DNA of 64,000 nucleotides from Pseudo-nitzschia pungens (lineage: Eukaryota; Bacillariophyta; Bacillariophyceae; Bacillariales; Bacillariaceae). How positions within the stretch are numbered: the first letter of the stretch is position 1; each line of letters starts with the position of its first letter. Location of the stretch: NCBI GenBank assembly GCA_037355855.1, contig CM074765.1, positions 2,914,001 through 2,978,000 of the forward strand, read 5' to 3'. The translations under genes were made by a program, and so were the position numbers. The notes under the pieces are model-generated. The model worked only from the letters and a program-made list of their open reading frames with translations. It had not been told where the DNA came from and ran no database searches. Shown in pieces: positions 13,109-56,438 of the stretch.

Positions 13109-16100
13109 CTATTCTAGCATTTCTATAGGATTGAGTCGAAACACGTTCTTTTCGGCATCGGCGCCGATTGGTGACTCCCCGTTGTCAGCAATTGATATCA
13201 TGTCACGGAAAATGCTAGGCATTTCGTCAAGTTTCCTTTGCTCTTCGAGGACCAGTCCGGCGGCAGCGAAAATTCCTTTCTCCTTCGCTTGCTCCCTGAT
13301 GTCCAGCGCTTCTCGGCACCGAGTCACAAGTGTAGAATCCACAACCTTGCCGCTAGTATGAAAGCTGGCGTCACGGCTGCCCTTCTTCAGGGTAGCAAAC
13401 AATACTTCCTCCTCCCCACTTGCTATCAAAGCCACTGAAAATGGTATTTCCGCAACAGACGAACGGTCTGATATCCCAACACCGACCAAAGCCTCAGCTA
13501 GGTTCATGCCTTCTGTTAGTACCTTTCCATAGATTTCCCTAGCCATCAGTGCCGCTGATCTCGTTACTGCTCTAGACTGAAAATCTAGATGGAAGGCTTC
13601 GACAACTAGGCGGACAAAGGCTTTGAGGAAAGGGGCAAGGACCGCTGACGAGGATTCGGCGATTACTTCGGACAAAACTGTGATGCGCAGGGACCGCACT
13701 ACCGCGGCTTCCTCTGCATGAAAAACGGGACCACCTGTCTTCAGACGAACATCTCTCTCTTCCCAATAATCTTTTGGGTTCGAAAGTTTAAACTCTTCAT
13801 CATTTTCTATTCGGTCTTCCTCGTTTTCTTCTTCGGAAACAACGAGACCGGTGCCAAAGTATCCGTCGGTTGCCTTTTGTAGCAATATTTGCTCTTTTTC
13901 TTCCATGACATGTCTTCCGCACACCATTCCTTCCTTTAAATCGGTCTTCGCCGTTCCGTGAAGCATCAGATTGGCTACAGCTGGAACGTATTCGTCGGTG
14001 ACGGCTCTTCGACGAATAATAAAAATGAGAGCTTCTGCAAGTTTAATTATTTGTTCTTGTGATAGACTAATAGGGGTTGAATTTTTGTTCATTGTCACCG
14101 TAGAGAAAGAATCTAGCTCCCCTCGAACAATAGCAGACGAAATCAACGGAAGAACATGCCGGGGATGCAGGTCACCAACTGCTACTATTGTCTGTACTGC
14201 TGCGAGATAGACATAAGATTCCGTGTCTTCAAGGGCAACCATTGATAGCCTTAGGACCTCACTGATCCAGGGAGCATCATTTTCAATTCCCCCGACAACT
14301 TCACCCCCTTCATTGAGTTTCAAGATCAACGACGGGGTATTTTGTCCACTCGATAGACTTCCTGCGAATCCGCGAGCCAATTTTCCAAGCGAAACCATTC
14401 CCCGGGCGCGTAATGGAGGTTGTGTCGATCTTAGGTCAGTCTCGGCATCCTTAAGAATTCTCTGGAGACCATTCTCCGATGACAGAGGAAGTGCTGCTAC
14501 CTTTGTCTTGGTATTATCTGCTTCACTGAGTTTCGCATCGATTGACACACGGGAAGCAACTAGCGCCATAGCATAAGCTGCCATGTCGGCCATTGCTGCA
14601 CACTCTCGCATGTCATCTTTGGTGTTCAGGTTGCGATTGGCTACAGGAATCGATAAGCGTTTCAGTACCGGGAGGAAGGATTGAATGATTTCTTCTTCCT
14701 CTGTTGACCTGAATTTTGAACCTAGTTCCATGACAGCAATGAGCATGCTTAACAGAATGGATGCTATCGATTTCAAGAATTCGTATCGCTGCACGTCGTC
14801 CCCTTCAAAATCCCCAGCGCTTTTTTCAGCCCTATCGTATCGGTTCAATTCTTCTTCTGCTGTCGCTGACAAAACTTCTCGAATCAGAGTTAGCAGCCCG
14901 GTCGTATTTTCTTTGTTCTCTCCAAACAGCAGTTGTTCTTGCGAACATCTTTCGCACAAAATGGGCAACAGAATTGTTGCGACAATCCTCAATGAAGCAT
15001 TGTCGTTCTTCTCATCTTTGCAGATGTAATGTCGTAGAAGGAATCGAAAAATCCTAGACGGGAGCCCCAGTATGAGCAACCGAGAATCAATGGTCTCCTT
15101 CATACCGTCGTGATTGGAAGCATTCGGGGCATTAGGAGCCAAGGCGAGAAGTATATTGTCAACAAAGAATTCAGCGGATTTGGTGGTAAATTGGACCGAT
15201 TCGGTGAATTCCTCAATGGCTGTTCGATGTTCCAATCGATGATACTGTTTTATTTCCAGCAATTTGACACGACTGTCATCACCCTTCTCAACTGCAGGGG
15301 TACTGCAAACAAACCGGTGACCTTCCAAATCCCACGATGTGGGCCCCAGTGCCAAGACAAACGCTGCTACAATTTCATCTCGAGCTTTTTCTTGATCAGC
15401 TAGTGAAGCTACCACGCTATTGTGAGCAAAAATGGCTTGAGTGAGCCATAGAAGAGTCCACTCGGCGTCTCTAGAGGTTGATGCGCATAGATTTTTTGGT
15501 GTTTGGTTGTCGTGCATAGCCACACGAAGGATTTGTCCCAGAATATTGTTGCACTTGTCACACCTGATTTCGTCATTTCCCGATTTATTGTCGGTGACTG
15601 TCGCCTTCATCAAAGTCCGCTTCAGGATTTCAATAGCGCGACTCGAATGCGGTGGTACAAATGCACAAAGCGCACCAATTTGTCGAATGGTCTCGTGTAT
15701 GCTTCCTCCGATGTTTCGTGCCGTTAGTATCTTTTTGTCCCGACCACCATACAATCGTTGTTCCCACACTTCTAAAATATGGCGGTCGATTGTTTGGTTT
15801 GACATGTTTTCGAAGACGGCCCACGCTGTCTGAATGACCGCCATAGAACGAGGGGGAATGCTGATTTTGCTGGTCGTTGTCGCCCCCGTTGCCTCGACAA
15901 TTACTGGAAAGGCAATGACGAGCAAATCCAATATTTTGTCACAGAGACGGCCTTGCAGTATCATGCCCTCCGTTGTTTGGCGGTGACTTGATGCCGGAAT
16001 CGTAGTCATAGCCACCAATGTCCGCCCCAAACGTTGCGCGGCCCCACTCATTAACGAGGTCTGATCATTTGACGAGGAAGCGATTGGCACAAAGACCGTG

Positions 16101-21779: not shown

Positions 21780-21866
21780 ATCGTCTGTGGTTTGAATGGT
21801 ACCGTTATCGGTATTGGTGGTAATGAGGGATACAGTAGATTGTAGATTTTTGTTGTTCGATCAGAT

Positions 21867-22223
21867 TCCCGAAGTTGCATAGGCCGTATGCGCCGCGGCT
21901 ACGGTAGCCGCGGTGGATTCCACCGCGGCTAGGTAGCCGCGGCGCATTCCACCGCGGCTACCGTAGCCGCGGCAGAGGCCACCGCGGCTAGGGGGACGTA
22001 CAAACATTTACCGGGACTGTACGTACCGGTGGGAACAAAATCTCTGTACAAGTACGGTAAACCTTACTGCGCGCTTGAATAAGTTGTCACAGGGAGGGAC
22101 AAAAACTGTACGGTACTGCGCGCTTGAATAAGTTGTCACAGGGAGGGACAAAAACTGTCTAGGAAATGTAGAGTAAGGTTACCTAAAAGTGTCAGGGTTA
22201 TACGTACCTCGTATCTATTCATA
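21867..22223 (+). repeat. Left terminal inverted repeat of the 13-kb element
   Basis: The first ~190 bp are almost identical to the inverted right end. Positions 21893-21987 contain seven CCGCGG sites arranged as consecutive palindromes with CTACGGTAG, TGGATTCCA, CTAGGTAG and CTACCGTAG centres. Further in are two tandem copies of a 45-bp unit (22065-22109 and 22114-22158; TACTGCGCGCTTGAATAAG ... GGGACAAAAACTGT). The match fades after GTGTCAGGGTT at about 22223. A degenerate third unit is at about 22266. Confidence 0.9.
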
Positions 22224-22675
22224 GTAGGTACAAAATCTGTGTAGCAAGATTGTAACTGCCAAAGGGTTTGAATAAGTTGTTACAAGGAGGGATAGTCCCG
22301 GCAAAAAATTACTGTAGATTGTAATTTGTAATTTCCTTCCGTACTGGTAAGGTTAACTTACCGTACGATAGTGTGAATAAGTCACTCTGAATGATGCAAC
22401 GATACCGTAGGACTTCCTCGTACGAGTACTGGTATTTACTCATATTCAAAATGTTTTTCTACCATTAAAACCCCCAGATTGATTCCAGTTGAATTTAAAC
22501 TCACTAGATTGACAGGATTTAACCCCTTAGCGAGCCGGGTGATAAAGATTTTGAAGCAACCACATGGCATGTGATCGTACATAAAATTTGAAGGACTGTT
22601 TCTGCCAAATTCGATAAACACTCAAAAAGCCTTGTTACAATTACCACTGCCAAGGAGAATTTATTAAAAGACAAC

Positions 22676-25600
22676 ATGCCGCAAACTCGGGCGAGTAAGA
22701 GGAAGAAGCCTCCGCAACCAGGGGAGGAAGCAAGCGGTCCCAACGACTCAGAGACCATGCCGCAAACTCGGGCGAGTAAGAGGAAGAAGCCTCCGCAACA
22801 AGGGGAGAAAGCAAGCGGTCCCAACGACTCAGAGACCATGCCGCAAACTCGGGCGAGTAAGAGGAAGAAGCCTCCGCAACAAGGGGAGAAAGCAAGCGGT
22901 CCCAACGACTCAGAGACCATGCCGCAAACTAAGAGGAGTAAGAGGAAGAAGCCTCTGCAACAAGGGGAGAGAGCAAGCGTCCCCAAGGACTTAGACACCA
23001 TGCCAAAAACTCGGGCGAGCAAGAGGAAGAAGCCTCCGCAACAAGGGGAGGAAATAAGCGTCCTCAACGAGTCTTCGTTGAAAGATGCCATACCAAAAAC
23101 CCGGACAAGTAGAAGGAGGAAGATGGCTCCGCATCCGGAGGAAGAGGGAAATGATCCCAAGGCCTCTGAGTTGGAAGAACTCATGCCAAAAAGTCAGGCA
23201 AGCAAGAGGAAGTGTAAGAATACTCCGCAACCGGGGGAGGAAGCAGGAGGCGACCACAAGGAATCTTCGCAACCGGAGAAACGGCATGCGGAATCATATG
23301 TTGAGACTGCCGCCGGATTGCACATTAGGCGAAGACCGAGAAGAAGCTCGAAGGGTACTGTTGGTTCAACAAATCAGAGACTCCTTCCCACAGCTGCTAA
23401 TCGACTATCGCCACCATCCAAGAAAAAAATCAAATCTACTACAATTTCTACACTGCGGCGTTCCGAAAACGAAGAACAAGCCATGCGGGAAACAGAAGCA
23501 AAAAAGAAGACGGAAGCGACCGATAAGGTGAAAATTGAGGCGAGAGGTGACAATACTATCAGAAAAGAAGGGTTCGATCCATCCGAAAGGGAGCAGGGGA
23601 GCGACTCAGTAATTAGAAGGCAACTTTTGTCTACATTTGATACAGAAAGTAGTGGGACACCCGCAGCCCACAGTGAAGCATTTTGTCATGAAGATGCAGT
23701 CGACTCGTTGCTCAAGTTAAGACTCTCAACCTCTGGGACAGAAAATTTTCGGCCTCATCCTCCCGAAGACTACAATCGGTGCGTCGACGAGGTTGATCAA
23801 GTACAGGGAAACAAATTATCACCAGAAAGAGGGGGGAAGCCATTGGACAAAAAAACAGATGAAATCAACAGCAGCACTAGGGAGTCGGCGCTGCCTTCAA
23901 ATGACGTTGAGCATTTGTTGTCGAATTCATTCGATCTGTCTTCGAGCAACGACGATAGTGATTATGAAGTCAAATGCTTACCCACCAAGTTTTCAATGCC
24001 CATCTTACGTTACTCTTTTGGTAAGAAAGTTTATTCTGGAGACCTTGAGTTAAAATATGAGAAAAGAACGCAGACTTTATCTATTGGCGGGAAGTCAAAA
24101 ACGAAAGCAATTCGAGTGAGTAACATGAAGGCAGTGATTGGCATCAAGTATGCTCTTTCTTCTCGAATGGACAGAACGGCACAAGGGACAGGGCAGCCAA
24201 AACTTCAATTTGTAGAGAGTGTTGTCATATTTGAAGTTCTACTGACGAACGTCGATCGGTCAACACTCAAACCCCCACCGTCGTTTCCAAGCGATTGTAT
24301 CCAGACGTCTATTGTTGTTGAGTTCGGTGAAGAGTCAAACTTGCATCAACTGAAGAAAGAGTTTCGTAACATAGCCACACCGATTGAGGTAGATTGTGCG
24401 ACAAAATTATTGGGGAGCGTCGGATGCTTAGTTAGTGATGCGGAAGCTGCTTATCGAAAAAGGCTGAATTCAACGAATAAGATATCATGCCATTTCTTGC
24501 AGGGCAGAAAGACCGATGAAAATCTTTTCTCTTTTCCGAGGGTCATGAGTGCCGAAAATATCGAGAAGGTCTCAGAGAACCTGAATGAACTTGATATCAA
24601 ATGTTCCACTATAAATCAGCAAGGAGGCGTCATAACGATGAATGTAGTCGACTACAAATCAGTGGCCGAGTCATGTTGGCTGAATGATAAAGCCATTGAT
24701 CTGTGGATGCGATGGGTGCTTGAACAATCTTTGAATGAGGATATTCACGTTTTTGGCTCTTATTTCTATACCACTCTGAGTTTATTTGGACCAGAAGAAG
24801 TCAAAAATTGGACCAGCGGGAAATATCCTGTCGACATTTTCAAGAAGCGGATGATATTGATTCCAATCAACCGTTTGTTGCACTGGTCACTTTGTGTGGT
24901 GATCAACCCAGGTGCAATTTCTTCTGATTCAACAACCGACGGTCTGTCGCCAATCCTGCTTTATTTCGATTCCATGAATAGATCAAGAACAGAAGTAGAG
25001 CATCAGGTAGAGACGTGGCTCAACCATGAATGGGAGCGTATCCATCCTGACCAAAAATCCGCGTTTTCAAAAAAAAACATGGTCCGAATAAGTCCAACAG
25101 TTCCTCAGCAAACAAATTGCAACGACTGTGGTGTTTTCACTCTCAAGTTTGCGCATGCCGTTTCTGAGATGGTATCATTGTTGTCTAATCATCAGATAGT
25201 CATGCATGGAATTCCTAGCTTTTTGGCGTTGATCGAGACTTCGAATCATTTCAAATTTCATCCGCAGAAATATATCTCGCGGATGCGGAAGGATTATCAA
25301 GAATTCATGCAGCGAATGACTTGGGATGAGCAGAGGTGTCTGGATTGGAAGAAGAAGAAGAAGAACGCAAAAGTCAAAGGAGCGCAGAACCACACAAGGC
25401 CCAAACCAAAGATGGCATCGAATAAAGCAACTGCTACAGAAATTAATAACAGGGATTCTGAAAATCGTAGCTATACCACTCATGACAGAGGAGAAGCCCA
25501 CCTCTCAATCGGAACTCGGGTGAAGGGAGAAGTATCAGCGGCAAAGATGATTGTCGCGTGTACAAGCGAAAGGTCCGATCGGATATTCCCTGAAACGAAC

Positions 25601-25828
25601 TATTCGAGAAACGATCTTCAAATTCAAAGGATCCGTTCTATGGAAAGAGATCTCGATATGCAAATCACACAGCATGGCTGGATGATGATGAGAGATTTGG
25701 ATCGGATGCAGTATATTGTGAACCGTATGAAAATGGCAGAGGGAACGTTTCCGAATGAAAGTTTTACGAGTTGTACAAAAAATAATGATGATACAAACAA
25801 CAATGAGGAAACTGATCAACAGAGGTGA
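22676..25828 (+). CDS. Ulp1-type SUMO/ubiquitin-like protease (C48) with N-terminal repeats
   Basis: 1050 residues. The N terminus has four tandem 27-residue repeats (81-bp units from 22676), each starting MPQTRASKRKK or close, followed by two or three decayed ones. Their basic cores look like nuclear localisation or DNA-binding signals. The protease domain spans about 650-890. His736 (LLHWSLCVV), Asp765 (LYFDSMNRS), Gln812 and Cys818 (PQQTNCNDCGVF) form the complete catalytic set of Ulp1/SENP enzymes, so the enzyme is probably active. C48 proteases remove SUMO or related modifiers and are recurrent passengers of eukaryotic DNA transposons. The tail has a coiled-coil-like basic stretch. Several repeat Mets give alternative starts. 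Confidence 0.85.
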   Translation: MPQTRASKRKKPPQPGEEASGPNDSETMPQTRASKRKKPPQQGEKASGPNDSETMPQTRASKRKKPPQQGEKASGPNDSETMPQTKRSKRKKPLQQGERASVPKDLDTMPKTRASKRKKPPQQGEEISVLNESSLKDAIPKTRTSRRRKMAPHPEEEGNDPKASELEELMPKSQASKRKCKNTPQPGEEAGGDHKESSQPEKRHAESYVETAAGLHIRRRPRRSSKGTVGSTNQRLLPTAANRLSPPSKKKIKSTTISTLRRSENEEQAMRETEAKKKTEATDKVKIEARGDNTIRKEGFDPSEREQGSDSVIRRQLLSTFDTESSGTPAAHSEAFCHEDAVDSLLKLRLSTSGTENFRPHPPEDYNRCVDEVDQVQGNKLSPERGGKPLDKKTDEINSSTRESALPSNDVEHLLSNSFDLSSSNDDSDYEVKCLPTKFSMPILRYSFGKKVYSGDLELKYEKRTQTLSIGGKSKTKAIRVSNMKAVIGIKYALSSRMDRTAQGTGQPKLQFVESVVIFEVLLTNVDRSTLKPPPSFPSDCIQTSIVVEFGEESNLHQLKKEFRNIATPIEVDCATKLLGSVGCLVSDAEAAYRKRLNSTNKISCHFLQGRKTDENLFSFPRVMSAENIEKVSENLNELDIKCSTINQQGGVITMNVVDYKSVAESCWLNDKAIDLWMRWVLEQSLNEDIHVFGSYFYTTLSLFGPEEVKNWTSGKYPVDIFKKRMILIPINRLLHWSLCVVINPGAISSDSTTDGLSPILLYFDSMNRSRTEVEHQVETWLNHEWERIHPDQKSAFSKKNMVRISPTVPQQTNCNDCGVFTLKFAHAVSEMVSLLSNHQIVMHGIPSFLALIETSNHFKFHPQKYISRMRKDYQEFMQRMTWDEQRCLDWKKKKKNAKVKGAQNHTRPKPKMASNKATATEINNRDSENRSYTTHDRGEAHLSIGTRVKGEVSAAKMIVACTSERSDRIFPETNYSRNDLQIQRIRSMERDLDMQITQHGWMMMRDLDRMQYIVNRMKMAEGTFPNESFTSCTKNNDDTNNNEETDQQR

Positions 25829-26099
25829 GTTCTTTTGTCAATTGCCCTGACATAGTGTGCAGTACTCATGAGGTATTTGGGTCACGATTAGTTCCCAGTC
25901 GTACGTACATCGAGAGTACGGGAGGTTTCAATGACATGTCCGTGCAAAGTACTGTACCAGTACAAACGAGTTACTGACTTGTACACCAAGCAAATAATGT
26001 CCGATGGTCACTCATGTTCTCCGTAAAATGATGACCCTCACATCAACGGTTCTACTTTTTGTTCCCACCACTTTTCGTGTTTCGTCCGTGTCATGAATA

Positions 26100-27011
26100 A
26101 TGACAAAATCTTCCGTCTCAAGTACAAGTATGATTAGCGGTAGGAACAATTACAATACACCGAAGGCTTACACTCCAGCTCAATATGTAACGAATGCAGA
26201 TTACACAGTACAACGAACTCGCTTTGTCAACACCATGCGGAACGATATTAAAGGACAGCTCAAGAATAAGAGTCTGCGAAACAAACCAACGTTGGTTGCA
26301 AACACAATGAATTTGAATCCGACCAAGTTGTCTCACCAACGAGCAAGTTCCATCAAAGTTGATGTGGAAGAAACAGCAGGTCATGGGACCAATACTGAGG
26401 AAGAAAACAAGCCACCTGCGCATAAAGTCGATGCCCACAAAGACAACAAACAAACTGCGAATGATTACAATGAATCAGAGGATGATGATAAAGAGATACC
26501 CACATCTAACGATGAATTGCCAGCACCTGCAAGAGTCGAGTGTGTCTTAAGCCACCAAAATAGGAGGAATTTGGCGAGACAAGGAGAAAGATTCAAGAAG
26601 AGGTATGCAACTATGTATAAATCCAAAGACCATTGGCCTAGGTTTACAGGCTTTTGGATACAAGTAAATGAGATAAAGGCAAACAAAGGTGGGAAATCGA
26701 AACTAAAAGACAAGTACCGGGATGCGTTACAAGTTAACGTTCTGGGACAGACCGAAAAATACCTGGATTTGCTGAAAGAATGCTTTCCTCCTGATCATAT
26801 AGATAAATCAAAATTCAAAGTCAAATATTTCACTGACCATAACTTGTGGGCAAAAGAACTTGCCGTACAAGAAAATGGGAAGGCTTTGACTCGGGGTACT
26901 ACGGCCGACGGAAATGCGATGAAAAGGCTAAGGGAGAGAAGAGCCTTGAAAGAGAAAAAGAGAAGAGGAGTGATGTCTCCGCGTTCCTATCAATCTAACA
27001 AAAAGATTTGA
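26100..27011 (+). CDS. Unrecognised basic protein of the 13-kb element
   Basis: 303 residues, with no family recognised. The first ~130 residues are Asn/Thr-rich and probably disordered, with an acidic patch (NESEDDDKEIP). Residues ~145-250 look folded (RFKKRYATMYKSKDHWPRF, then LLKECFPPDHIDKSKFKVKYF). The C terminus is highly basic (RLRERRALKEKKRRG), fitting nucleic-acid binding or nuclear import. It has the same orientation as the Ulp1-like gene and starts 271 bp after its stop. By position it may be an accessory factor of transposition; that is inference. Confidence 0.6.
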   Translation: MTKSSVSSTSMISGRNNYNTPKAYTPAQYVTNADYTVQRTRFVNTMRNDIKGQLKNKSLRNKPTLVANTMNLNPTKLSHQRASSIKVDVEETAGHGTNTEEENKPPAHKVDAHKDNKQTANDYNESEDDDKEIPTSNDELPAPARVECVLSHQNRRNLARQGERFKKRYATMYKSKDHWPRFTGFWIQVNEIKANKGGKSKLKDKYRDALQVNVLGQTEKYLDLLKECFPPDHIDKSKFKVKYFTDHNLWAKELAVQENGKALTRGTTADGNAMKRLRERRALKEKKRRGVMSPRSYQSNKKI

Positions 27012-27339
27012 AGACACAAGAGAAAAGAATATGCACGACAACTTAGGTTATAGTAAATATCTATGAAGAGAAATGCGAAATCATATCGCCATCCGTAGGA
27101 GTAGTAATAATAGTTGCCCGTTCTGAATATCTGTGCCCGGTACTTGTACAACACGAGGAGGTAGAGATGTAAACATTTTGAAGGTGGAAATTGTCCATTT
27201 CCGTGATGAGTTTTCCAGATTGACTCAAATGATACGTTGAGTGTGAAATTTTGTCAATGCCTCGGACAAATCAGTCCAAATTTAGTTTATCGCAACGTCA
27301 ATTGATAAACTACCACTACAGCGTGGATTGCTCATTGAG
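27012..27339. other. Gap between convergent genes of the 13-kb element
   Basis: About 330 bp of 3' flanking DNA of two convergent ORFs. No feature is seen. Confidence 0.35.
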
Positions 27340-28111
27340 TCAGTCAGAATCAACGCTTTCGTCACACGCCCCGTTTCCGTTGTTCTGACCTTTCCTTTGC
27401 ATTGCTTTATAAAGAGCAATCAGCTGTTGCTGTTCAGCGATTACTTTCAAAAGATCTGCTGTAGTCTCCTCTTTCTTTTGTTCGTAATGTCGACCTTTCC
27501 CAAAGATATGATCTCTGAAAGCAAAGCTTTCACGTTCAATCCGATAATTTGATCTCGACTGCTTCTGCATTTGCTTTCCGACAGCAACTAGATGCTTACC
27601 AAAGGCTACTTCATCGAAATCAAGCGGAACGTAGAAACACGAGATAGGTTTCGATCTAGCACGGCGACCATTTTCTGAATTCTTTGGATCTTCAACAAAC
27701 TCGTCATAGGTCATAAAAAAGTGCTGTGATTTCGGGTTTGTATTGCGATCAGCAGACTCCTGCCATGTGCAGCCCTTCTGCAATTCTCCCACATGCCTCA
27801 ATATCACTCCCATTTTCCTCCAAGTCGTAAAGTCTTTGATATGTTCTGGACTACTTGGTGGTTCCCCCGTCTTTCTTCTTTTTCCGTCCGCCGTCTTTCT
27901 TCTTCTTTCGCGTTTTTCAGTCTTTTTTTCTTTGCTCTCCGTCAAGATTTTAACGGTATTGCGATAAATCCTTCTTTGCTTAGTACGAGAATCCCGATTT
28001 ACATCTTCCTTTCCAACGGCAGTGGTCTGTCCGATTCCCAACCCTTTTTGTACTTCGCTATTGTCATCGTCACCTTCACTTTCTTCGCTTTCGGAAGCAC
28101 AAAGAACTTCG

Positions 28112-28142
<31 letters not shown>

Positions 28143-29187
28143 GATCATCCTTATTGTCACAATTATTCGAAGCAGCAGCAATAATAGCAGCGGCAGTGGT
28201 AGCATCAAGATCATCCAAATCTTTGAGATCATTCAAAGCAGCGTCAGTAGCAGGATCATGGGGATTCAAATTCAAATTGCCAGCACCTTCACCGTTTTCC
28301 TTTTCCTCCTCAGATGAAGATCCCGATGATTTTGCTTCTTTTACCTTGAACCCGTCCTCTGGGCTTCTGCAATTGTAACAGTACAATTTGGGATAGGAGA
28401 GACGCGATTCGTCAATGTAACTGGCGCAAAGAGCGCAATGTATTTTCTTTTTGCATGAATGGCACTTATGCCACACCTTGGACAAGTCAACATGCGGATA
28501 TTGACAATATTTTTCTCCCGATGCGCAAAAATAGAGATCCACTGTCTTGGTTGGAGCAGCCTTCTGGTCAAGCGACGGATCTTCTTTTTTGTTCTCAGCA
28601 CCGGAGAGTTGAGTACCATGATCGTCTCCTTTGTCTGATTTCTTATTGTGAAGAGATTCTTCCTCGCTGTTTTTGATACCCTTTGCATTTGCTTGAGAAG
28701 TTCGTTGTTTGGTATTCTGAGACTGTTTAGGAGGGTCTTTCATCTGACTTTTGTTTTTCTTCGATGATGACGGCTCACGTTCTTCTCCTACATGAGAGCG
28801 TTTCTTGGAGGTCTTTTTCTTGTCAGTGGTTGACGTCGATTCATCCTGGTGGCTTCGCCTTGCTTTGACTCTGGTCCAATATCCTCCTTCGTTTCCGCTT
28901 AGATCGGACGCGAGTTTTTGAACTTCTTTCGATAGACACACATCTTCCACCTTGGAAGCATCACCAGAAACAGCGTCCGTTGAAGACTGACTACGAGAGC
29001 TTTGGTTCTTCGATCTCAGGCGCAACGAATGGCGAGATCCTTTGCTTTCCCCACTTTTCATCTTTAGCTTTGGGTTCACTACTCCGCGGATAAGTTCATT
29101 CACAGCAGTTGCAACCCTCCGACTGACAGTAAAGGGTTTGACTCTTCTCTCATTGGAAGATTCCGCCTTTTTGAGACGTTTAACCAT
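27340..29187 (-). CDS. Unrecognised zinc-binding, low-complexity protein of the 13-kb element
   Basis: 615 residues. The N-terminal ~200 residues are basic and Ser/Lys-rich. A Cys/His cluster follows at about residues 225-275 (FCASGEKYCQYPH, WHKCHSCKKKIHCALCASYI, LYCYNC). It looks like a zinc ribbon or PHD/RING-like module. After that come an acidic region and an eight-Ala run encoded by a GCT/GCA microsatellite (about 28107-28140), then a basic segment (KRERRRKTADGKRRK). The last ~150 residues look folded (FTTWRKMGVILRHVGELQKGCTW is a plausible start) and end in a Gln-rich helix. DNA or chromatin binding is plausible. The family is not recognised. Confidence 0.6.
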
Positions 29188-30201
29188 AATGCCGTTCCTG
29201 TGGGTAACTTGTCAATTTTGTGGAACAATATTACTACTGGCTTTTGTTGTTTTGCAACAGAAATAAACATGAAAAATCCTTCTTCACTTGTTGCACATCC
29301 CGGGAACCGAAACGGTCTCCTCGAATGACAAATCCACAGTAAATCGTGGGACACATACCGTGGAAGTTAATCCGTTGAAGTAAACTAATCATTTCATTGT
29401 CCACGATTTCATTTCGTTTTGTGGAGCTGACTGAAATTGCCACTGGGAGTGTCAGTTGAGGCATACAAACAATTAAGTCCCCCACGATATCTCTTGCATG
29501 TTTTCCCAGGGATTGAAACTGTCAGTTGCAAAGGACAGAGTGATTGATGAACTGAAAAAATGGTTCCATCAAGAAACTTATTCATGGCACCGTGATACCA
29601 AGTAAGAAGTAAGGCTTAGTCATTATTTTTTCGATCATGCGCCGTCCAACTGACAGGAAAACACAACAGAAAGGAATGACTTTCTAACTTTTCCAGAAAT
29701 AAGCCTTCATGATAGTCAATATCTCTCATGCGCCGTCGAACTGACAGGAAAAGACAACAGAAAGGAATGACTTCCTAACTTTCCAGAAACGAGCCTTGAA
29801 TAATGAAATAAGAAAAAGGCGCGATTTCTGAAACATCGAGTCATTCGTGGAATTTCCGCATTAAAAACTAAAAGATTATCCCCCAATGTTTAAAAAGTAC
29901 CATGGAACAAACGAAAACTGTCATTTATCCGTTAAGTTTTTCCCCTGTGCACTCCCAGTCCGGGATTTTGCTTTCCTTTTCTTGATCCATGAAAAATTTG
30001 ATTAGAATGCCAAGTTTTTTCACACACCGTTAGGATTGTCGGTCCCGGTTTGTGCTTTGTTCACAATTTTTTTGGATGGTTCTTGGAGACGATGTACTTT
30101 AGTCAATGTGCGTGACAACTTTTGTTGATTTTAGTAACATACTCAAATACCATAATATTGAATATTTACCAAAGAATAAAGAAAATTCATAGACGATAAT
30201 A
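29188..30201. other. Divergent noncoding region inside the 13-kb element
   Basis: 1.0 kb between divergent ORFs, so probably the promoter region for both. It contains a diverged tandem duplication of about 90 bp (about 29636-29706 and 29727-29793) sharing CATGCGCCGTC, AACTGACAGGAAAA and CAACAGAAAGGAATGACTT. No coding sequence is supported. Confidence 0.5.
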
Positions 30202-31248
30202 ATGGCTCTGTACACCACCAAGACCTTGAGGGTGATCGAAAAGTTCCGTGCCGATGCAGCACTTTACGTCCCATCAAAGCTAAGGGGACAAAAATGGTCC
30301 GAAACTTCAGGCCCTGGAATGGGAGGGAAAGCAATCATTCAGCTTCAGGAAAATGCCGATGGCAGTAAGATCAAAGTCCCTGTGGTTCGATACTATCTTC
30401 GCCATGGAAAAGACGTATTGAATGGTAGGATTCTTCAGGGCCTTCCAATTAATCGCAAAGATACCAAATCTGTTCTCTTTAAAATCGCTTCCTCCACTAC
30501 CGGTGAGAACCGCAGGAAAACCATCTACCTCATAAAGTTTGATGCCGTTGATGACGCCGATAACTTTGTGGATTGTTGGCACAAGATGAATGGGACGAAG
30601 AACTCTTCGCCGCAGGAACCAGAACAAGACAAAGAAGTTCAAGATACACCAGAGCAAGACACACTGCCTCTTTGTGAATCTACAAATCGACTTTCGGCCA
30701 TTCGTGGATCACCGCATCCCTTAAAGCTAAAGGAAAAAAAGGGAGGAAACACAGATCAGGAGAATATCTCTCGCAAGATGCAAACTCATCATGAGGACTC
30801 AGAGTCAAGTTTACTTGGCAAAGAGAAACTACCTCTTCGTGAATCCACGAACCGGCTTCACAAGAAACGAAAGCCCGTTCGCTCATCACCGCATCCCTTT
30901 GAGCCAATGAAGAAGAGAAGTTGCACAAAGAACGATCACAAGAAGTTTACTGATCCTGAGAACTTCGATCTGAACTTGAAAGATTGTAAGGTGTCGTGCA
31001 GTGATGAAACCTGTACCCGAAAGGATCAGTCTTTGAATCCTTTTGGAATTGAGAAGGCTGATGAAACACACACCGGGTTGGACGACAACAATGAAGAAGA
31101 GGTGCTAAATGCCACCGAATCGAGCGATGCCGGTAGTTCAAAAGACGATGGTGAAGAAGAGGAAGTCGGAATCGATTACCAAGCCGCCCCTCTATCCCAA
31201 GACTGGCTGTCTGCATTTAGCCTAGACGGCGACGACTATTACTATTGA
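30202..31248 (+). CDS. Unrecognised protein with a possible PH-like N-terminal domain
   Basis: 348 residues. The first ~135 look like a compact beta-rich domain ending in an amphipathic helix (YLIKFDAVDDADNFVDCWHKM). This pattern recalls PH or RanBP1-type folds, where a C-terminal helix with Phe and Trp closes a beta barrel; it is a weak structural guess. The rest is disordered and charged, with two related repeats (LPLCESTNRL and LPLRESTNRL, each followed by SSPHP or GSPHP). It ends in an acidic, aromatic tail (LDGDDYYY). It is convergent with the RING/DUF6589-like gene, with 61 bp between stops. Confidence 0.55.
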   Translation: MALYTTKTLRVIEKFRADAALYVPSKLRGQKWSETSGPGMGGKAIIQLQENADGSKIKVPVVRYYLRHGKDVLNGRILQGLPINRKDTKSVLFKIASSTTGENRRKTIYLIKFDAVDDADNFVDCWHKMNGTKNSSPQEPEQDKEVQDTPEQDTLPLCESTNRLSAIRGSPHPLKLKEKKGGNTDQENISRKMQTHHEDSESSLLGKEKLPLRESTNRLHKKRKPVRSSPHPFEPMKKRSCTKNDHKKFTDPENFDLNLKDCKVSCSDETCTRKDQSLNPFGIEKADETHTGLDDNNEEEVLNATESSDAGSSKDDGEEEEVGIDYQAAPLSQDWLSAFSLDGDDYYY

Positions 31249-31309
31249 AAGCTGAGACTAGATAATAAGGGCAGATTGCTCGACATTCATTTAATCCGTG
31301 CTTAAACAT

Positions 31310-34219
31310 TCAAAGGCTTGGAACGACTGTTGCATCTGGATGAAACTTGTAGAATTTCATTCCTTGGTTTATTTCCTGTGTCCTTGAGTCAATGGATGTT
31401 ACCATAGATAACAGTTCGTTTCCTTCGCAGGCTTCTTTTCTTTCCTCCAAAGCATCTGGGTACTCCTCGAAGTATATTTTTCGGGCAGTAACTAATGCTT
31501 CGAGGAGCTTATCCTTCTTATCATTCGCATTCACTTCACCAATGTCTAGGAAATCAAGCTCTTTGTCGTCCATGAAATTCTTTATTGAATTGATTTCATC
31601 TACAATCTCTCCTTTCTGAAACTTTCTGCCGAGACCTTTTAGCTCCTCGAAATCAACCGAAGTTGACTTGGTGAAATCTGTTGTGACGTCTTCTTCAAGC
31701 TGACCGGCATTTGATCGGAAGCAGTGCAATTTTGGATTGTTCCCTTTACAATATTCTTTAACCCGTCTTCCTGATTCAGTCCAAGACCCTAGAATGGCAG
31801 TCGAAATAGGTGTTTGCTTGGAAAGACTAATGAGATTTTCATTGTCGACTATATTTGGTGGACCCATTCCCCAAAGATTCAAACTTGCCGCATAATTGTA
31901 AGTCTTCACGTACACCTCTCCAAGAGTGTAACGTCTATGATTGTAATCAAGCGGATTCTCTGTCGATTCTTCATCAAACACCGTCCCGTGGTAACGATTC
32001 ATTGTCTTGTCCAATGTTGGAACCTCGGTCATAAACCTGGCGATCATACCTTTGAACATTTTTTTCCCATACATGTATCGAACGTCTCCAATGTGCTTTT
32101 CCATGCAGAGGTCTGATGGCATTAACTCCCCATTGGTTGTAACTTTTGTGAATAAATAGTGCTTGAAAATATTCTTCAGGCATGTACTTGCACACTCATA
32201 CCATTTCAGGAAATGCGTGTTCATATGTATGTACTTGGGTGCATTCGAAATTGCCTCCAATCGAACGAGGTACCGAAGACAAGTCAAATACTGTGGAATA
32301 TCTCCGTGATCTCCAGACCTTGAACAATCTCTCAACATAAGTATTACCGTAGTGAACTTCAAGTGGATCAGGAACATGAGGCAGATTGGATAATCTATAG
32401 CTCGTTGAATAATATGATCATTGATAGCTCTCGGCGATGATTCCATTGTAACGTTGTCACAGAGGTTTCGTATCATGGCAACTTTGTACTGAAAGAGCTC
32501 GTTGAAAATATCTTTTGGATCCGGGCATGCAAGCGCCCAATCTAGTCGTTGAGAAGATGTACGCCATCGACGATTGAAGGCAATGAATGCTTCCCTACTG
32601 TGTTTCCCATTAAGGTTTCGAAGCGAGTTTATCATCAGGTGAAAAGACATGGAAAACCACTCAACCTTTGCGAATCTCTGGTCTCCGTCACGTTCCATTT
32701 CCTCTCTTTTTCTAAGAAAAAGTTCCACTGGTCCGCCATCGGCGCAAATTGCGTATATCATACCTTGAAGAGTCTCGGTTTGGTTATTCTCTGGCGTCCA
32801 TCTATCACAGGTTCGAATCATTGCCTTGGTGAGCTGTGTCACAGTTTCTGTCTTCCCAAGATTCGAATGATACGGTGGTTGAATGCAAAGTCTGTTTCTC
32901 TGATAAAATGATAGTCTTGTAGAAAGCCCATTGGCAAGATCAACGGGCTTCATCCGATATGGATGAGTCGGTTCCTTCAGTGCGTTGCCAAGATTGAGAG
33001 GAACGGATCCTACACCATCGTAATCTTTGATTGCCTCAATCTTTCTACAAGCTTTTGGAGTTGGCAGATCTGCATTTTTGATTGCGTTGATCATCCTCAT
33101 TTCGTAGTTTGAGAAGGAACGCCAGTCGTCATCATTCACATCGAACACTCGACTGATCAGTTCATCTTCTCCTTCTTCTTCTTTTAATGTATCCCAATCC
33201 TTGCCATCGTTTTGTTCCCATTCAAAAGCTCCGTCGTGCTTGATATCTTCTTTGGAGTTATTCGAGAGAAGGAAATGAGTCCAGTGATCTTTCTCTGCAT
33301 GGCCAGTATAGTCAACATTATCACAAAGAGCCGATGTGAACCCACCGGAATCAAGCTTCAACCCTTCTTGAACATTCTCAATAGCAGCAATGCTATTCTG
33401 GTTGCGTTCCGTTGTCCTATGAGTTGATAGCCGTACCGACGATAGAAACTTCTGCAAAGTGGAAGACCCTGGAATTGTAGATACAAACCGACCAAGCATT
33501 ACCTGAAATGGAAATGTTTTGTAGTGATCGACAAGCCTCAGTACGATATCAACAATAACACCAGTTGCCAAAATCCTTCCCTTGACCTCGGGGTCAATTC
33601 TTGCGTCGTCCTTATCTGTCTCGATATCATGCTGTCCTGTGCATAACGCGTAGAAATATCTGGTGATCGGCCGTTGATCTTGAAATACGGATCTTTTCCA
33701 TTGGAGGGGATTCATCGAACGAGGATTTTCCCCGTTTGATTTACTTTGTGTTCCTGCAAGGAGATAGACACGCAGCTTGATAAGAATATCAATCATTTCT
33801 TCCTCGTCGCCCTTTTCGACGGCTCCGTTCTCCTGATGAAGCATCGCAACAATTGACTCCGGTGGATCAGCGTCGGCACTTTCCATGGATCGATTTATCA
33901 CAGCAACAAGCATTTTCCCCTTTTGTTCTTCCTTTGATAGTTTGTAGTTAAAGTAGCGAAAAGGGTCTTTCTCCATGATAATTTCATTCTCCTCTTCGTA
34001 TTCTTCATGGTCAACCTTTTCGTCACGATAAATATGATATGTTGAAAGCTCGAAACAGCCGGGGCATGACAGTTTTTCAAACCTTCTCTTTATGAGTAGT
34101 CCATTAACCATGCACCCGGGACAAATGGCATGCTGGCAGGGATGAATATGGAAAAGTTCTTCCTTCGTGAAAGTTTTGCAGCATGAGTCGCAACCAAGTC
34201 TATTCATTTTAAGCGACAT
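31310..34219 (-). CDS. RING-finger protein with DUF6589-like layout, candidate transposase
   Basis: 969 residues. The N terminus is a textbook RING-HC pattern: Cys10-x2-Cys13, Cys28-x-His30, Cys33-x2-Cys36, Cys52-x2-Cys55. RING fingers usually recruit E2 ubiquitin enzymes. The long remainder resembles DUF6589-type proteins, which are thought to be RNase H-fold transposases. The resembling blocks are the acidic block CDNVDY (Asp300), ADGGP (Asp494), then WFSMSFHLMINSL (His527), a helical region and YIHMNTHFLKWYECAS. These match only by order and spacing as I remember them. It is the best transposase candidate in the 13-kb element. Start at 34219 or the next Met four codons on. The stop is 61 bp from the convergent PH-like gene. 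Confidence 0.6.
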   Translation of the reverse strand: MSLKMNRLGCDSCCKTFTKEELFHIHPCQHAICPGCMVNGLLIKRRFEKLSCPGCFELSTYHIYRDEKVDHEEYEEENEIIMEKDPFRYFNYKLSKEEQKGKMLVAVINRSMESADADPPESIVAMLHQENGAVEKGDEEEMIDILIKLRVYLLAGTQSKSNGENPRSMNPLQWKRSVFQDQRPITRYFYALCTGQHDIETDKDDARIDPEVKGRILATGVIVDIVLRLVDHYKTFPFQVMLGRFVSTIPGSSTLQKFLSSVRLSTHRTTERNQNSIAAIENVQEGLKLDSGGFTSALCDNVDYTGHAEKDHWTHFLLSNNSKEDIKHDGAFEWEQNDGKDWDTLKEEEGEDELISRVFDVNDDDWRSFSNYEMRMINAIKNADLPTPKACRKIEAIKDYDGVGSVPLNLGNALKEPTHPYRMKPVDLANGLSTRLSFYQRNRLCIQPPYHSNLGKTETVTQLTKAMIRTCDRWTPENNQTETLQGMIYAICADGGPVELFLRKREEMERDGDQRFAKVEWFSMSFHLMINSLRNLNGKHSREAFIAFNRRWRTSSQRLDWALACPDPKDIFNELFQYKVAMIRNLCDNVTMESSPRAINDHIIQRAIDYPICLMFLIHLKFTTVILMLRDCSRSGDHGDIPQYLTCLRYLVRLEAISNAPKYIHMNTHFLKWYECASTCLKNIFKHYLFTKVTTNGELMPSDLCMEKHIGDVRYMYGKKMFKGMIARFMTEVPTLDKTMNRYHGTVFDEESTENPLDYNHRRYTLGEVYVKTYNYAASLNLWGMGPPNIVDNENLISLSKQTPISTAILGSWTESGRRVKEYCKGNNPKLHCFRSNAGQLEEDVTTDFTKSTSVDFEELKGLGRKFQKGEIVDEINSIKNFMDDKELDFLDIGEVNANDKKDKLLEALVTARKIYFEEYPDALEERKEACEGNELLSMVTSIDSRTQEINQGMKFYKFHPDATVVPSL

Positions 34220-34678
34220 CCGACATTATTGTGGTTGTTACGGTTCTCGTCACTGTCCGTGATGGAGCAGGGCATTGCTGTTTGTTCTCGTTGATTTCGT
34301 CATCATCACTAACATTTTTTACAAATTGCAGAACGCTTTGTGACAACAATCCCTATCATACCCGGGAAATTTGATTTCTGATCATTATTTGTATGTGTTG
34401 TCACCCATTGTCCCTTGTCACCCGGCTCGGAATGGGTATGTGTAAACGTTTGAGTGAATTTTTAACCTCGACACAAACAAAATTTGAACAAACTCCAGAG
34501 AAGTGGTATCTTATGTATGTTGCTCTCAAAGGTAATTACACTTATCGTACGTCTGGTACGAGTATTTTGTACACGATACGAGAGGAGATGGAAAAATTGT
34601 AGGATTTTCAAAGCTCACAGATTAATTTTGGCTAACGTCCTTTTAACGAATCTGCTTAATGTTATTACTAGTATTTTC
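34220..34678. other. Noncoding leader between the RING gene and the right TIR
   Basis: This is the presumed promoter region of the RING/DUF6589-like gene. Only short ORFs without features are present. Confidence 0.35.
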
Positions 34679-35092
34679 CTATGAATGCATACGAGGTTCA
34701 AGGTACATAGAACCCTGACACTTTTACGTACAGTACATTGCAAAGTACAGTACGTACGATCTTGCTAGACAGTTTTTGTCCCTCCCTGTGACAGGAGTGA
34801 CAACTTATTCAAGTGCGCAGTAAGGATTAAGATTACGGTAACCTTATCGTAAAATTACAGTTTTTGTCCCTCCCTGTGACAACTTATTCAAGCGCGCAGT
34901 ACCGTACTTGTACAGAGATTTTGTACACACCGGTACGTACAGTCCCGGTAAATGTTTGTACGTCCCCCTAGCCGCGGTGGCCTCCACCGCGGCTACGGTA
35001 GCCGCGGTGAAATGCGCCGCGGCTACCTAGCCGCGGTGGAATCCACCGCGGCTACCGTAGCCGCGGCGCATACGGCCTATGCAACTTCGGGA
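34679..35092 (-). repeat. Right terminal inverted repeat of the 13-kb element
   Basis: The inverted partner of the left end. It has seven CCGCGG sites at 34972-35066 and two copies of the subterminal unit in reverse (about 34771-34821 and 34858-34900). The outer copy is exact and the inner one has an 8-bp insertion. The inner limit shares GTGTCAGGGTT and CCTCGTAT with the left end. Small indels explain the length difference. Confidence 0.9.
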
Positions 35093-35096
35093 AGAT

Positions 35097-42000: not shown

Positions 42001-43083
42001 TAGTTCCCCAATGATTAGGTGAAGTTTGCATGTGGTTCAATACAATAGGTTTGGAGTTGAAGTTCAGTACAATACGTTTGGAAAAGAGATATGCCTGTTC
42101 GGAGAACCGGTTGCAGATGATGTATGCCCTTTGAGATATTTCAGAAGATATATGGTAATGTAGATTGAAGTGGGATTGAAGAAGGTTCTTCGTGATACTG
42201 AAAATCGAAGATTTTTGTTTCTTGTTCTTGAGAAGGTTCGTAAAGACATGGTGAAAATAGACAAAGAGTCGAAGAAAATAGACAAAGAGTCGAAGAAAAT
42301 TCTTTTCCTCCCCCAACTGTGATGTACCTTTCGGGGTAGTGGAGCTGATTTGAAAATCGGTGGATTTGGAAAGTGATTGCTCTCGGTAGGCATAAAAACA
42401 CCTCCTGTTGTAATAGGAGTTAATATAGGTAGGTGAAAAGCCGGAGCGTTGGATGTGTTGCTTGCTGTATCTGCGATTGTATGTGTTTAAAAGCAGAGAG
42501 GGGACGCATTGTTAGTGACGTTATGAGTCATTTAATTCATTCGCCATTTGCCGGATACTTTGCCGGTCTTTGTTTGGGTATATTTGCAGCAGTATACTGG
42601 AGTTTAGAATTTTGTACTTCCAGAGCACCTCTGTGGGTGTAGAATATGGATTTTGTGGGATTGCTCCGGTTATTTCTGGAGCTCCCTGTGGACTATTTGC
42701 TTGTCCGGAACAAGGTTGGCCTTGTTGTTGCTGCTGTACTCTTTATCGATATCGGTATTTATTCGATTCGATTGATTGATTCATGGCTTTAGCGTCTGTA
42801 CCCTTTGCAATTAGTTCGCGTCCGAACCTTTTGCTGTTATTTGTATTTGCCATCTTTGAATCGTTTATTTTGTTTGGTTATTTGGTTGATTGTTGTTGCC
42901 GTCACTGTGGAGCGGTCTCGAGCGCATTGATTTAGTTCGAACATTTTGTTTGCAACAGGGCTCATCTCTGTAGGTTCCTTCCCCTCTTTTCTTGGGAGTT
43001 CTCCTCCATGCGTCTTCCCAGTCAGCAGGGCTGAGCTGGCATTCAGTTCCAGGGGAGCTGAAGGCACGGTGCTGGATACTGTG

Positions 43084-43400
43084 TGTAACACTCTAAGGTA
43101 GAAATTCGGAGTAGTATGAATAATTGTGTGTTATTTCACTTTACGAGATGGGATTGAAATTAAAGAGATGAAATAATGAGCGATGAGGTCATCGCGATCT
43201 CTTTGTATAATCTACATCCCTGTATATAACATATATTCTGTATGTAACCTTAATCGTACGATCGCTCTCTTCTGTATGCCCGTTCATACATACCGGATAT
43301 CCATACATGTATATCATACATATAGGTATCGATTGAATCCCATGTGGGATTCGGTTAATTATTAATTTGTAACACTACTAGCCTACGCTAGCATGTTACA
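43084..43400 (-). repeat. Element A 3' LTR (317 bp)
   Basis: It begins TGTAACACTCTAAGG and ends GCTAGCATGTTACA on the plus strand. It is the same length as the other LTR and showed no difference by eye. Confidence 0.92.
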
Positions 43401-43430
43401 TAGTGCCTCATGATTGAACAAATCCCACAG

Positions 43431-46400
43431 TTAAGCCGACCAGTGACTCATGGAGCAATCTGAGTCATTTGATTGGCTCAATTCGATATCTGCTGATTCA
43501 GCCGGTGTAGTCTCCGGCTGATTCAATTGACTTACTGTGGATTCATCCGATGGTTCTCGATACGGCGTAAGCTTTGGGATATTCACTGTTTCTATCACTG
43601 AGGGAGCTCTTTGCAGTTTTACAGTTCCATTTGCGTTGACTTGTGTGATTGGAAAGGGGTCTATCTTTCTAGGTTGGAGCTTGTCCGGATCCGGTTCTTG
43701 TATCCATACCTTATCATTCACTTGGAAGGTGAGATTGATTCTTTTGGCATTATCTCTGAGCAGATTCTTGTTAATCCCTTGTTGCCGGAGCTGTTGCAGA
43801 GCTAACAGGTTGGATGTTAGTGGCAGATCAATCAGCATGTCCCGATTGAATACTAGGGACCCTGGAGATGCCTGTAAGGCAGCGTTGACAGCACATCGAG
43901 AGGCATGCATGCAAGTTGCCAGGGCATTATCCATGAGCTGACTGGCTCTGGTGTTGACTTGAGGGGGATTCACATGAACTAGGACTCTGAGAATATCAGC
44001 AACTGTATGATGGACTCTTTCACAGATGGCGTTAGATTGGGGATTCTTCACTGTAGTGGGAATGGACTGAATCCCATACTGCTTGAGAGTAGTCTGGAAC
44101 TCAGCACCTAGAAACTCGCCACCATTGTCGTGAACGCATCTGATAGGTCTTGGGTATCTTGAAAGCCAACAGTTCTTGAATTGATCAGAGACATGCTGAG
44201 AAGATTTGTCTCTGATCCGGATGATTTCAAGTAGGTTGGTGACTGGATCAATACAAGTTAGGGCTTTGAAGTTGTAGTTCTTGCCCTGAGCTGTAATCTT
44301 CCATGGGCCTATAAGATCCACATGTATCTCGTTGAATGGAGCTAGTGGGGCTTCTTTTGGTGGTAGTTTGCCATACTTGGAGTGCTGGTTCTTGTACTTA
44401 ATGCAGCTGTCGGGGCAGATGTAAGTCTTGCAAAGATTGGATAGATTGTCGATGTAGAATCGTGAGGAGATAGTTTGATATAGCCTGGTGGATCCACAAT
44501 GACCCAACAGAAGGTGATACCATTTGATGGTATCATTCGAGAGAGAACTTGGTATGTATATGCGCCAGTTGTCTGGGTTCGATTGGTTGGCATAGCAGAG
44601 GATATTATTGCCCTCTAATTCTTGGTAGAAGAAGGCTTTGGATTGAGTCTTGAACTTGATGGTAGGGTCTTTCTGTTGATGGAGATAGATATTTGAATAG
44701 TTCACCGGGCATTCTAGGTCTTGGTTATTTGGTAGGTTAACTAGACACTCATTGTTCAGCAAGCAGGATTGTAATTCCTGGTCTGCATCATTGCATAAGT
44801 GCCGGAATAGGTTGGGGAACTCTGTTAAAAACAGTTCTTCATCTTGTTTAGGAACTTCAAGTTTCAAGAAATTGATTAAGGTGCCCTTTGAGAGGGCTTT
44901 CTTCCCTTCAGTAGGTGGATCCATCCTGGGTAGTCTGGAGAAAGTATCGGCAAGAACATTCTTCTTGCCTTCAACATAGCTGAGGTTGACACCAAATTCT
45001 TCGAGGAATAGTCTCCATCGGAGGACTCGTTGGACTGAAAGGGTTTGGAAGGTTAGGTTCTTATGGTCAGTGTATACATTGATAACACCACCAAGTAGCA
45101 TTTTTCTGTACTCTTTGCAGCAGAGTACGATTGCAAGGAGTTCTTTCTCCATAGTAGTATAGTTCTTCTGGGCATCAGATAGTTTCTTAGACCAGTATGC
45201 AATAGGCTTGCCATCTTGTAGTATAGCAGCACCAAGTTGCAGGTCTGAGGCATCAGTGTACAGTTCAAAGGGCTTGTTAAGGTCTGGATAGGTGTTCAGC
45301 GCATCCGCTGCCACCATTGCTTTCATCTCTTGAAAGGCTTTATCTTGAGCAAGTCCCCAAGTGAAAGCTGAAGGAGCTTTTCTTTGCTTGCCTTTGATGG
45401 CAGCTGCTTGAGGAGTCTTTTGCTTGGGGGTTCCGGTGATATCAAAGAGAGGAGCTAGGACATGAGACCTGCGAGGCCACATATCCCTGTAGTATCCTAC
45501 TGCACCGAGGAAAGACTTGACTTGGGTAACAGTTCGAGGTCGGTCCATATGTAGAATGGCTTCAATCTTCTTTCGCCAAGGCTTAACTGCAGTGGGAGTC
45601 ATCCAATATCCAAGAAAGTCAGTTTCTTGTACAGCCCAGTCACACTTGAGTGGGTTGCATTTAAGTCCATTTTGGTTGAGCCGGTCTAAGATCTTGTCAA
45701 TGGTCTTCATGTGGAGGTCAAAGGATCCATTGGTCCAGACGCCAATATCATCAATGTACACAGTGCAGTCAGTGTCTTGTAGGATATCTTCCATAAGTTG
45801 CTGGGCAACATCTGGGGAGACTTTGACACCCATGGGAAGTCTCTGATACTCATAACATCCATAGGGAGTCACGATGGTACAGAGTTTCTTGCTTGCATCA
45901 TCCAGTTCAAAGCAGTAGTATTGCATAGACAAGTCAATCTTGGTGAAGTGAGTGTACTTGCCTCGCTTGTTCATGATATCCTGTATCCGGGGGATTGGAT
46001 AAGGACGTCTCTCAAGAAGTTCATTCAGTTCTCTGAAGTCTGATACCCATCTAACTCTGTTGTCCTTCTTTGGAACAATAAAGGTAGGGAATGCCCATTC
46101 AGCTGGTCCAGTGCATCTTTTGAGTACTCCATCATTACAAAGATTCTGGAGCTCCCTTTTGAATAGGTCTTCTCTTTTGTATGCAACTGGGTAAGGCTTC
46201 TTGTGTATAGGCTTGGATCTGGGCTTCAGTCTTAGAGAGATCTTCTTGTGTGGATACTTCCCTAATTCTCCATTGAAGACGTTAGGGTACTTGCTTAATA
46301 TTGCTTGGAACTGCTGCTGCTCTGTTGTGGACATGTGGGACTGTTGCTTGGCTACTGTCGATGGGTCTGTTTCTTGGTAGGCTCTGTCGAGTATGACTTT

Positions 46401-47327: not shown

Positions 47328-47384
47328 GGTGATTGCTGGTTTTGGTGAAGCCGGGGGCTTCTTAGGCCGGGAGGCCTTGGAGAT

Positions 47385-48422: not shown

Positions 48423-48567
48423 GGTTGAAGGAGTTAGTTGGATAAGGAGGTTGCTCTTGTCAGGGATACAGGTTGCCTCTCTTGTTGAGGCTGTTGCTTT
48501 GGTTTTCGTGAGAGTTCAGTACTGAATTCTACTACTGTTCCTACGTGAAAGCGGACAGTAATTACTG

Positions 48568-48884
48568 TGTAACACTCTAAGGTAGAAATTCGGAGTAGTA
48601 TGAATAATTGTGTGTTATTTCACTTTACGAGATGGGATTGAAATTAAAGAGATGAAATAATGAGCGATGAGGTCATCGCGATCTCTTTGTATAATCTACA
48701 TCCCTGTATATAACATATATTCTGTATGTAACCTTAATCGTACGATCGCTCTCTTCTGTATGCCCGTTCATACATACCGGATATCCATACATGTATATCA
48801 TACATATAGGTATCGATTGAATCCCATGTGGGATTCGGTTAATTATTAATTTGTAACACTACTAGCCTACGCTAGCATGTTACA
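48568..48884 (-). repeat. Element A 5' LTR (317 bp)
   Basis: Same sequence as 43084-43400. The inner edge is directly followed (toward lower coordinates) by the palindrome CAGTAATTACTG at 48556-48567, at the place where a primer-binding site would sit. Confidence 0.92.
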
Positions 48885-50630: not shown

Positions 50631-50818
50631 TTGCCATACCCCGGGTCTACTAGTGATTAGAATAGTAGTGACATGCAAATTGTGAGCTCTATTGGTTAGT
50701 CTATTTGCTACAGTTCTAAGAGCCCTCTGAATCGGCGATTCTGTCGACTCGCTGATTACTTTTATCCTTATCCTTAATCCAGTCCCGAACGGACTCGTGA
50801 GTGTTCTGGTGCACGGCA
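50631..50818 (-). repeat. Element C 3' LTR (188 bp)
   Basis: TGCCATACC...GCACGGCA. It has one extra C in the CCCCC run compared with the other copy. Confidence 0.88.
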
Positions 50819-50836
50819 TACTCCTCCATGGGACTG

Positions 50837-56251: not shown

Positions 56252-56438
56252 TGCCATACCCCGGGTCTACTAGTGATTAGAATAGTAGTGATATGCAAAT
56301 TGTGAGCCCTATTGGTTAGTCTATTTGCTACAGTTCTAAGAGCCCTCCGAATCAGCGATTCTGTCGACTCGCTGATTGTATTTATCCTTATCCTTAATCC
56401 AGTCCCGAACGGACTCATGACTGTTCTGGTGCACGGCA
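56252..56438 (-). repeat. Element C 5' LTR (187 bp)
   Basis: Partner of 50631-50818 with about ten differences, including GACATG/GATATG and ACTTTT/GTATTT. Confidence 0.88.

Follow-up and report, generated by a model that had tools for sequence, protein, structure and literature searches.

Within a 64,000-nucleotide stretch of the genome of the diatom Pseudo-nitzschia pungens (positions 2,914,001 to 2,978,000 of contig CM074765.1, assembly GCA_037355855.1; hereafter the window), a transposable element of 13,226 bp occupies positions 21867-35092. It is bounded by long terminal inverted repeats (TIRs), and comparison of the flanking sequences placed a 4-bp target-site duplication (TSD), AGAT, outside each end, at 21863-21866 on the left and 35093-35096 on the right. 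The interval 21863-35096, proposed in a preliminary description made from the letters of the window alone, corresponds exactly to the element plus one AGAT on each side. The TIR tips, TCCCGAAGTTGCATAGG..., begin at 21867 and 35092. Self-comparison of the sequence delimited a left TIR of about 360 bp (21867-22224, plus strand) and a right TIR of about 415 bp (34679-35092, minus strand), which are 97% complementary over their outer 194 nt, in agreement with the near-identity over some 190 bp noted at the outset, and 79% alike when compared over about 360 and 415 bp. GC palindromes are frequent in the left TIR, which includes a GC-rich self-complementary block (21892-21973) with arms at 21892-21931 and 21934-21973. 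Folded as single-stranded DNA, the first 133 nt of this TIR (21867-21999) reached -57.5 kcal/mol, compared with -34.0 kcal/mol for shuffled sequences (z -8.7), and none of 200 shuffles folded equally well.

The element carries five intronless open reading frames (ORFs) of 1050, 303, 615, 348 and 969 aa, each open from its ATG, and we scanned them against Pfam (E <= 1) and NCBIfam (E <= 0.1). None of the five was listed with an integrase, polymerase or tyrosine-recombinase family in these scans, in line with the stated lack of retroelement, Polinton or tyrosine-recombinase genes. ORF 1 (22676-25828, plus strand, 1050 aa) matches Peptidase_C48 at aa 668-834 with 76.4 bits (cut-off 20.7) and SENP2 with an E value of 1.5e-16. 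Its residues H736, D765, Q812 and C818 align in register with SENP2 and correspond to the catalytic His-Asp-Gln-Cys set; on the strength of these matches, ORF 1 encodes an Ulp1/SENP-type protease that has kept its catalytic residues and is likely a SUMO protease. The basic N-terminus of ORF 1 is encoded by 81-bp tandem repeats (22669-23250, plus strand), the last copies of which are more diverged. ORF 2 (26100-27011, plus strand, 303 aa) has no family match above cut-off, the sole match being to DUF596 at 13.2 bits (cut-off 25). ORF 3 (27340-29187, minus strand, 615 aa) shows a weak match to a Cys-rich zinc finger at aa 239-274 (19.3 bits, cut-off 27), and its residues ~437-572 belong to a module of about 110-140 aa that is common to proteins of other repeated loci. 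ORF 4 (30202-31248, plus strand, 348 aa) matches no family. Separately, we observed a 367-aa frame, 31% identical to ORF 4, at C3:1061083-1062096, away from any known copy of the element, and a 57-bp direct repeat (95%) at 29635-29782, in the element's non-coding middle part.

ORF 5 (31310-34219, minus strand, 969 aa), our proposed transposase, carries RING-type cysteines near its N-terminus, a core that resembles DUF6589, and a helical domain at its C-terminus. The preliminary description had named a SUMO protease and a RING/DUF6589-like protein; the first part is borne out by the Peptidase_C48 score, while both the RING and the DUF6589 matches fall below their cut-offs in the window copy. 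The RING match reaches 16.7 bits (cut-off 27.9), with all eight C3HC4 ligands visible by eye (C10, C13, C28, H30, C33, C36, C52 and C55), and in the DUF6589 (PF20231) match aa 622-720 correspond to positions 271-371 of a profile of 410. A protein database search gave four homologues, from ENA and JGI, with 54-62% identity to ORF 5, and a search with a wider alignment returned the same four. A six-row alignment of the ORF 5 family, in which the N-terminus is missing from two rows, has 106 invariant positions, including 17 acidic residues, and is most strongly conserved at aa 511-570 and aa 631-720; the second of these stretches is where DUF6589 matches. DUF6589 is matched by four of the six aligned members (E <= 1), scores 23.6 bits in all three complete copies of the element and 27.9 bits in a decayed copy (both described below), and matches in none of 14 control genomes. 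No relatives of ORF 5 (two alignments), ORF 1 or ORF 3 were found in viral contigs, nor any of ORF 5 in a prokaryote contig collection.

We searched the 66.9-Mb genome of the same assembly for other copies of the TIRs and ORFs, and found two more complete copies and one decayed copy. The left-end DNA gave 22 matches, including both ends of the two further complete copies, at C5:5017413-5030652 (13,240 bp) and C6:3313164-3326336 (13,173 bp). The three complete copies are 99.87-99.89% identical in pairwise comparisons (14-17 mismatches in 13,130-13,219 aligned bases, with 4-5 indels), yet they lie in different flanks and have different TSDs (AGAT, ATAT and GTTT), constant in length and varied in sequence in all three. 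A search with the 24-bp tip, allowing up to 3 mismatches, returned six genome matches, all exact and two per complete copy, and none with the control. The TIRs thus have fixed tips, the C6 copy lacking 89 bp at the corresponding TIR end from a point near the equivalent of 21893. Because near-identical copies with fixed tips occupy different flanks with distinct 4-bp TSDs, the element is a complete and recently mobile class II TIR DNA transposon, probably of the cut-and-paste type, and the earlier view of a self-contained, recently active transposon is supported. As a caution on this reading, no empty insertion site was seen.

A decayed, older copy lies at about C6:4401481-4412289, in pieces and interrupted by stop codons, with a TIR match kept at one end, and we read at least two waves of movement from these copies. 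In addition, a palindrome of ~72 bp at C3:6930745-6930816 (L018) consists of two diverged element tips and is perhaps a minimal dead derivative. All five ORFs are open in the window copy, as had been reported; ORFs 1, 2, 3 and 5 are also open in the other two complete copies, where ORF 3 is 618 aa long, but ORF 4 is interrupted by an internal TGA in one of these and by a 34-bp insertion in the other, which leaves a 309-aa frame. Broken in two of the three complete copies, ORF 4 would be either dispensable or in decay. With the other four ORFs open throughout and so little difference between the copies, the element may have remained active.

A second TIR family in the same genome is represented by a complete element of 10,818 bp at C2:7090891-7101708 (L052, L024 and L053), with tips TCATCTGGGGCC and a TSD, TAGT, that is taken from this one complete copy. 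It contains a 1058-aa frame, 23% identical to ORF 5, that gives no match to DUF6589. This ORF 5 homologue lies at one end and an inward-facing 931-aa protein at the other, in the same convergent arrangement as ORFs 1 and 5. The second-family tip has four genome matches (control 0), two at the C2 element and the others at C1:5473588 and C7:4542478. The latter two mark a second copy that is divided between C1 and C7; on both, the gene breaks off at the same base next to 500-N gaps, probably through a scaffolding error at an assembly join. We considered whether the 931-aa protein is a proven Ulp1 protease, and this was not supported, its motif resembling C48 by eye only. Relatives of the 931-aa protein also occur at twelve loci outside the second family (for example C6:3451723-3453517), with no ORF 5 match listed at any of them, and four of these loci have their match in three neighbouring pieces, as if spliced.

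The distribution of the encoded proteins over the genome suggests which of them may move the element. All ten matches listed for ORF 5 (E <= 0.001) sit within the two TIR families: three are in the complete copies, four come from fragments of the decayed copy, and the remaining three from fragments of the second family. Likewise, the ORF 5-type protein of the second family has eight genome matches, all within these two families. At the same threshold, ORF 2 has no match beyond the three complete copies. Ulp1 (ORF 1), ORF 3 and the 931-aa protein are different: 8 of 11, 17 of 20 and 26 of 28 of their matches, respectively, are located away from these elements. Host genes may account for some of the Ulp1 matches, and from their distribution Ulp1, ORF 3 and the 931-aa protein look like shared, exchangeable accessories. 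Because all matches of the ORF 5 type fall in the two TIR families and those of the other proteins fall mostly elsewhere, the ORF 5 type appears as the constant partner of such TIRs, and we therefore infer, with fair confidence, that ORF 5 is the transposase.

Two further kinds of repeated locus share proteins with the element. At five places (L033-L037, at C6:3004052, C2:6323848, C6:2848522, C2:8529205 and C5:3410496) a Ulp1 protease is contained in a frame of 1157-1242 aa, the other four loci being at least 99% identical to L033. Membership of these C48-protease loci in the same family as the element was not supported, as no ORF 5 match was listed for them (one flank was followed further, L058). 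The ORF 3 module, in turn, occurs in frames of 842-945 aa at repeated loci including L043 (C7:2187867), L044 (C2:6347381) and four more places.

As an explanation for the whole, we consider it reasonably likely that the 13,226-bp element is a complete cut-and-paste transposon moved by ORF 5. ORF 5 would bind the palindrome-rich TIRs, perhaps via its C-terminal helical domain and aided by ORF 3, and would cut and join DNA through an RNase H-type D-D-E site. Local motif patterns suggest D300, D494 and E707, three of the 17 invariant acidic residues, as a candidate D-D-E set, which is a guess, and a long helical insertion would separate the second residue from the third. Such an insertion is also present in hAT transposases. 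ORF 5 is probably an RNase H-type DDE enzyme. The Ulp1 protease would take SUMO or ubiquitin off the transposase or off proteins of repair or silencing, and the RING finger would attach it, in ways that favour transposition. Together the two suggest that SUMO or ubiquitin controls the transposase or host silencing, and such roles have been suggested for transposon Ulp1 and OTU domains (PMC2836005).

Several results make this assignment of ORF 5 less secure. The DUF6589 match is weak, at 23.6 bits against a cut-off of 27. No Pfam transposase profile was listed for any of the five ORFs at E <= 1, and none for ORF 5 together with its four close homologues even at E <= 10. In addition, two predicted structures of ORF 5 were too poor to judge an RNase H fold or a D-D-E site, the helical C-terminal domain (~aa 843-930) being the only confident part of the model. 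The Pfam entry for DUF6589 states no function, and our literature search found no paper on DUF6589, by which we do not claim its absence from print.

How the element relates to described transposons is less certain. We tentatively propose an undescribed superfamily, defined by 4-bp TSDs, a transposase with an N-terminal RING-type finger and a DUF6589-type RNase H-like core, and a separate protease-like gene in convergent layout, in which case DUF6589 would be a transposase family. A somewhat more doubtful alternative, which retains ORF 5 as the transposase and so overlaps with the explanation given above, is that a known superfamily (Academ, KDZ/Zisupton/Plavaka, Sola or similar) includes the element as a divergent member, its transposase being too distant to be matched by the profile. 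Academ elements have TSDs of 3-4 bp, and DUF6589 proteins are frequent in fungi and invertebrates in which Academ is also present. The missing transposase profile, which agrees with the initial statement that the lineage could not be placed, speaks against this alternative as far as Pfam goes, KDZ being among the profiles used.

The preliminary description had mentioned KDZ (Kyakuja/Dileera/Zisupton) solely as an example of transposons that carry Ulp1. KDZ elements are large and carry accessory proteins, as does the element described here, but Zisupton has an 8-bp TSD in place of 4 bp. At E <= 1 none of the five ORFs matched KDZ (PF18758), with divergence beyond the profile a possibility, and a genome scan for KDZ likewise gave no match, but the controls matched nowhere either, so that absence from the genome is not shown. 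The literature search found no report that treats Plavaka, Ulp1 and transposase together, again with no claim of absence from print. Mutator elements generate TSDs of 9-11 bp, compared with 4 bp here, and no Mutator transposase profile was listed for the element.

In favour of a known superfamily, Ulp1 accessories are documented in Ginger1 and Mutator (PMC2836005) and in Crypton (PMC3212892). Ginger1 is similar in its TIRs of 40-270 bp, its 4-bp TSD and the presence of Ulp1 in 8 of the 16 families of Table 1, but differs in its CCGG/CCGT TSD, its TGTNR tips and a Gypsy-type integrase fused to Ulp1 in elements of 2.6-7 kb (PMC2836005), whereas the present element has varied TSDs, TCCCG tips and a separate Ulp1 gene within 13.2 kb. 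None of the five ORFs matched rve or Integrase_H2C2, models that do match the nearby long terminal repeat (LTR) elements. CryptonS and CryptonF with a C48 (Ulp1-family) peptidase occur in oomycetes, and CryptonS in one diatom, but these have a tyrosine recombinase, and CryptonS has terminal direct repeats of 5-6 bp (PMC3212892), in contrast to the TIRs and TSD found here, and no tyrosine recombinase was listed for the five ORFs (Pfam E <= 1). In the available part of a transposon curation guide (PMC8969392), Academ, Zisupton, Ulp1 and Ginger are not named.

It is unlikely that the element is mobilised in trans, with ORF 5 as an accessory and the transposase supplied by another family such as the DDE_Tnp_4 (Harbinger-like) loci that contain the ORF 3 module. 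Such a source is suggested by aa 441-551 of ORF 3, which are 39% identical to the L044 protein, and by the neighbouring frames: in L043 the ORF 3-module frame adjoins a frame that matches DDE_Tnp_4 (28.4 bits), and the L044 protein adjoins a nearly identical one. However, the TSD of PIF/Harbinger is the 3-bp TWA, and that of the present element is 4 bp and varied in sequence; DDE_Tnp_4 matches L043 but none of the five ORFs; and ORF 5 is tied to the two TIR families whereas the ORF 3 module is not. Finally, a non-transposon origin, by segmental duplication of host genes that have inverted flanks, would fit the small number of copies (three complete) and the host-type nature of RING and Ulp1 domains, but is highly improbable given the different flanks, the sharp ends, the three distinct 4-bp duplications and the older decayed copy.

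The transposon is flanked by two divergent genes: a GIY-YIG-domain gene, with 88 bp between its start codon and the element's left end, and a protein kinase gene that starts at 35704. Further along the window we observed two LTR retrotransposons, each with a frame matching reverse transcriptase, RNase H and integrase. The first (43082-48865) has identical end repeats of 300 bp, and the second (50632-56438) has end repeats of at least 187 bp that are 95% alike.

If ORF 5 is the transposase, this would give DUF6589, a family of unknown function, a role and would define a new transposon lineage. In the element, a likely SUMO protease and a likely RING ligase are united with the proposed transposase in one mobile unit. 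With it, the suggested SUMO/ubiquitin control of transposition, raised for Ginger1 and Mutator (PMC2836005), becomes testable.

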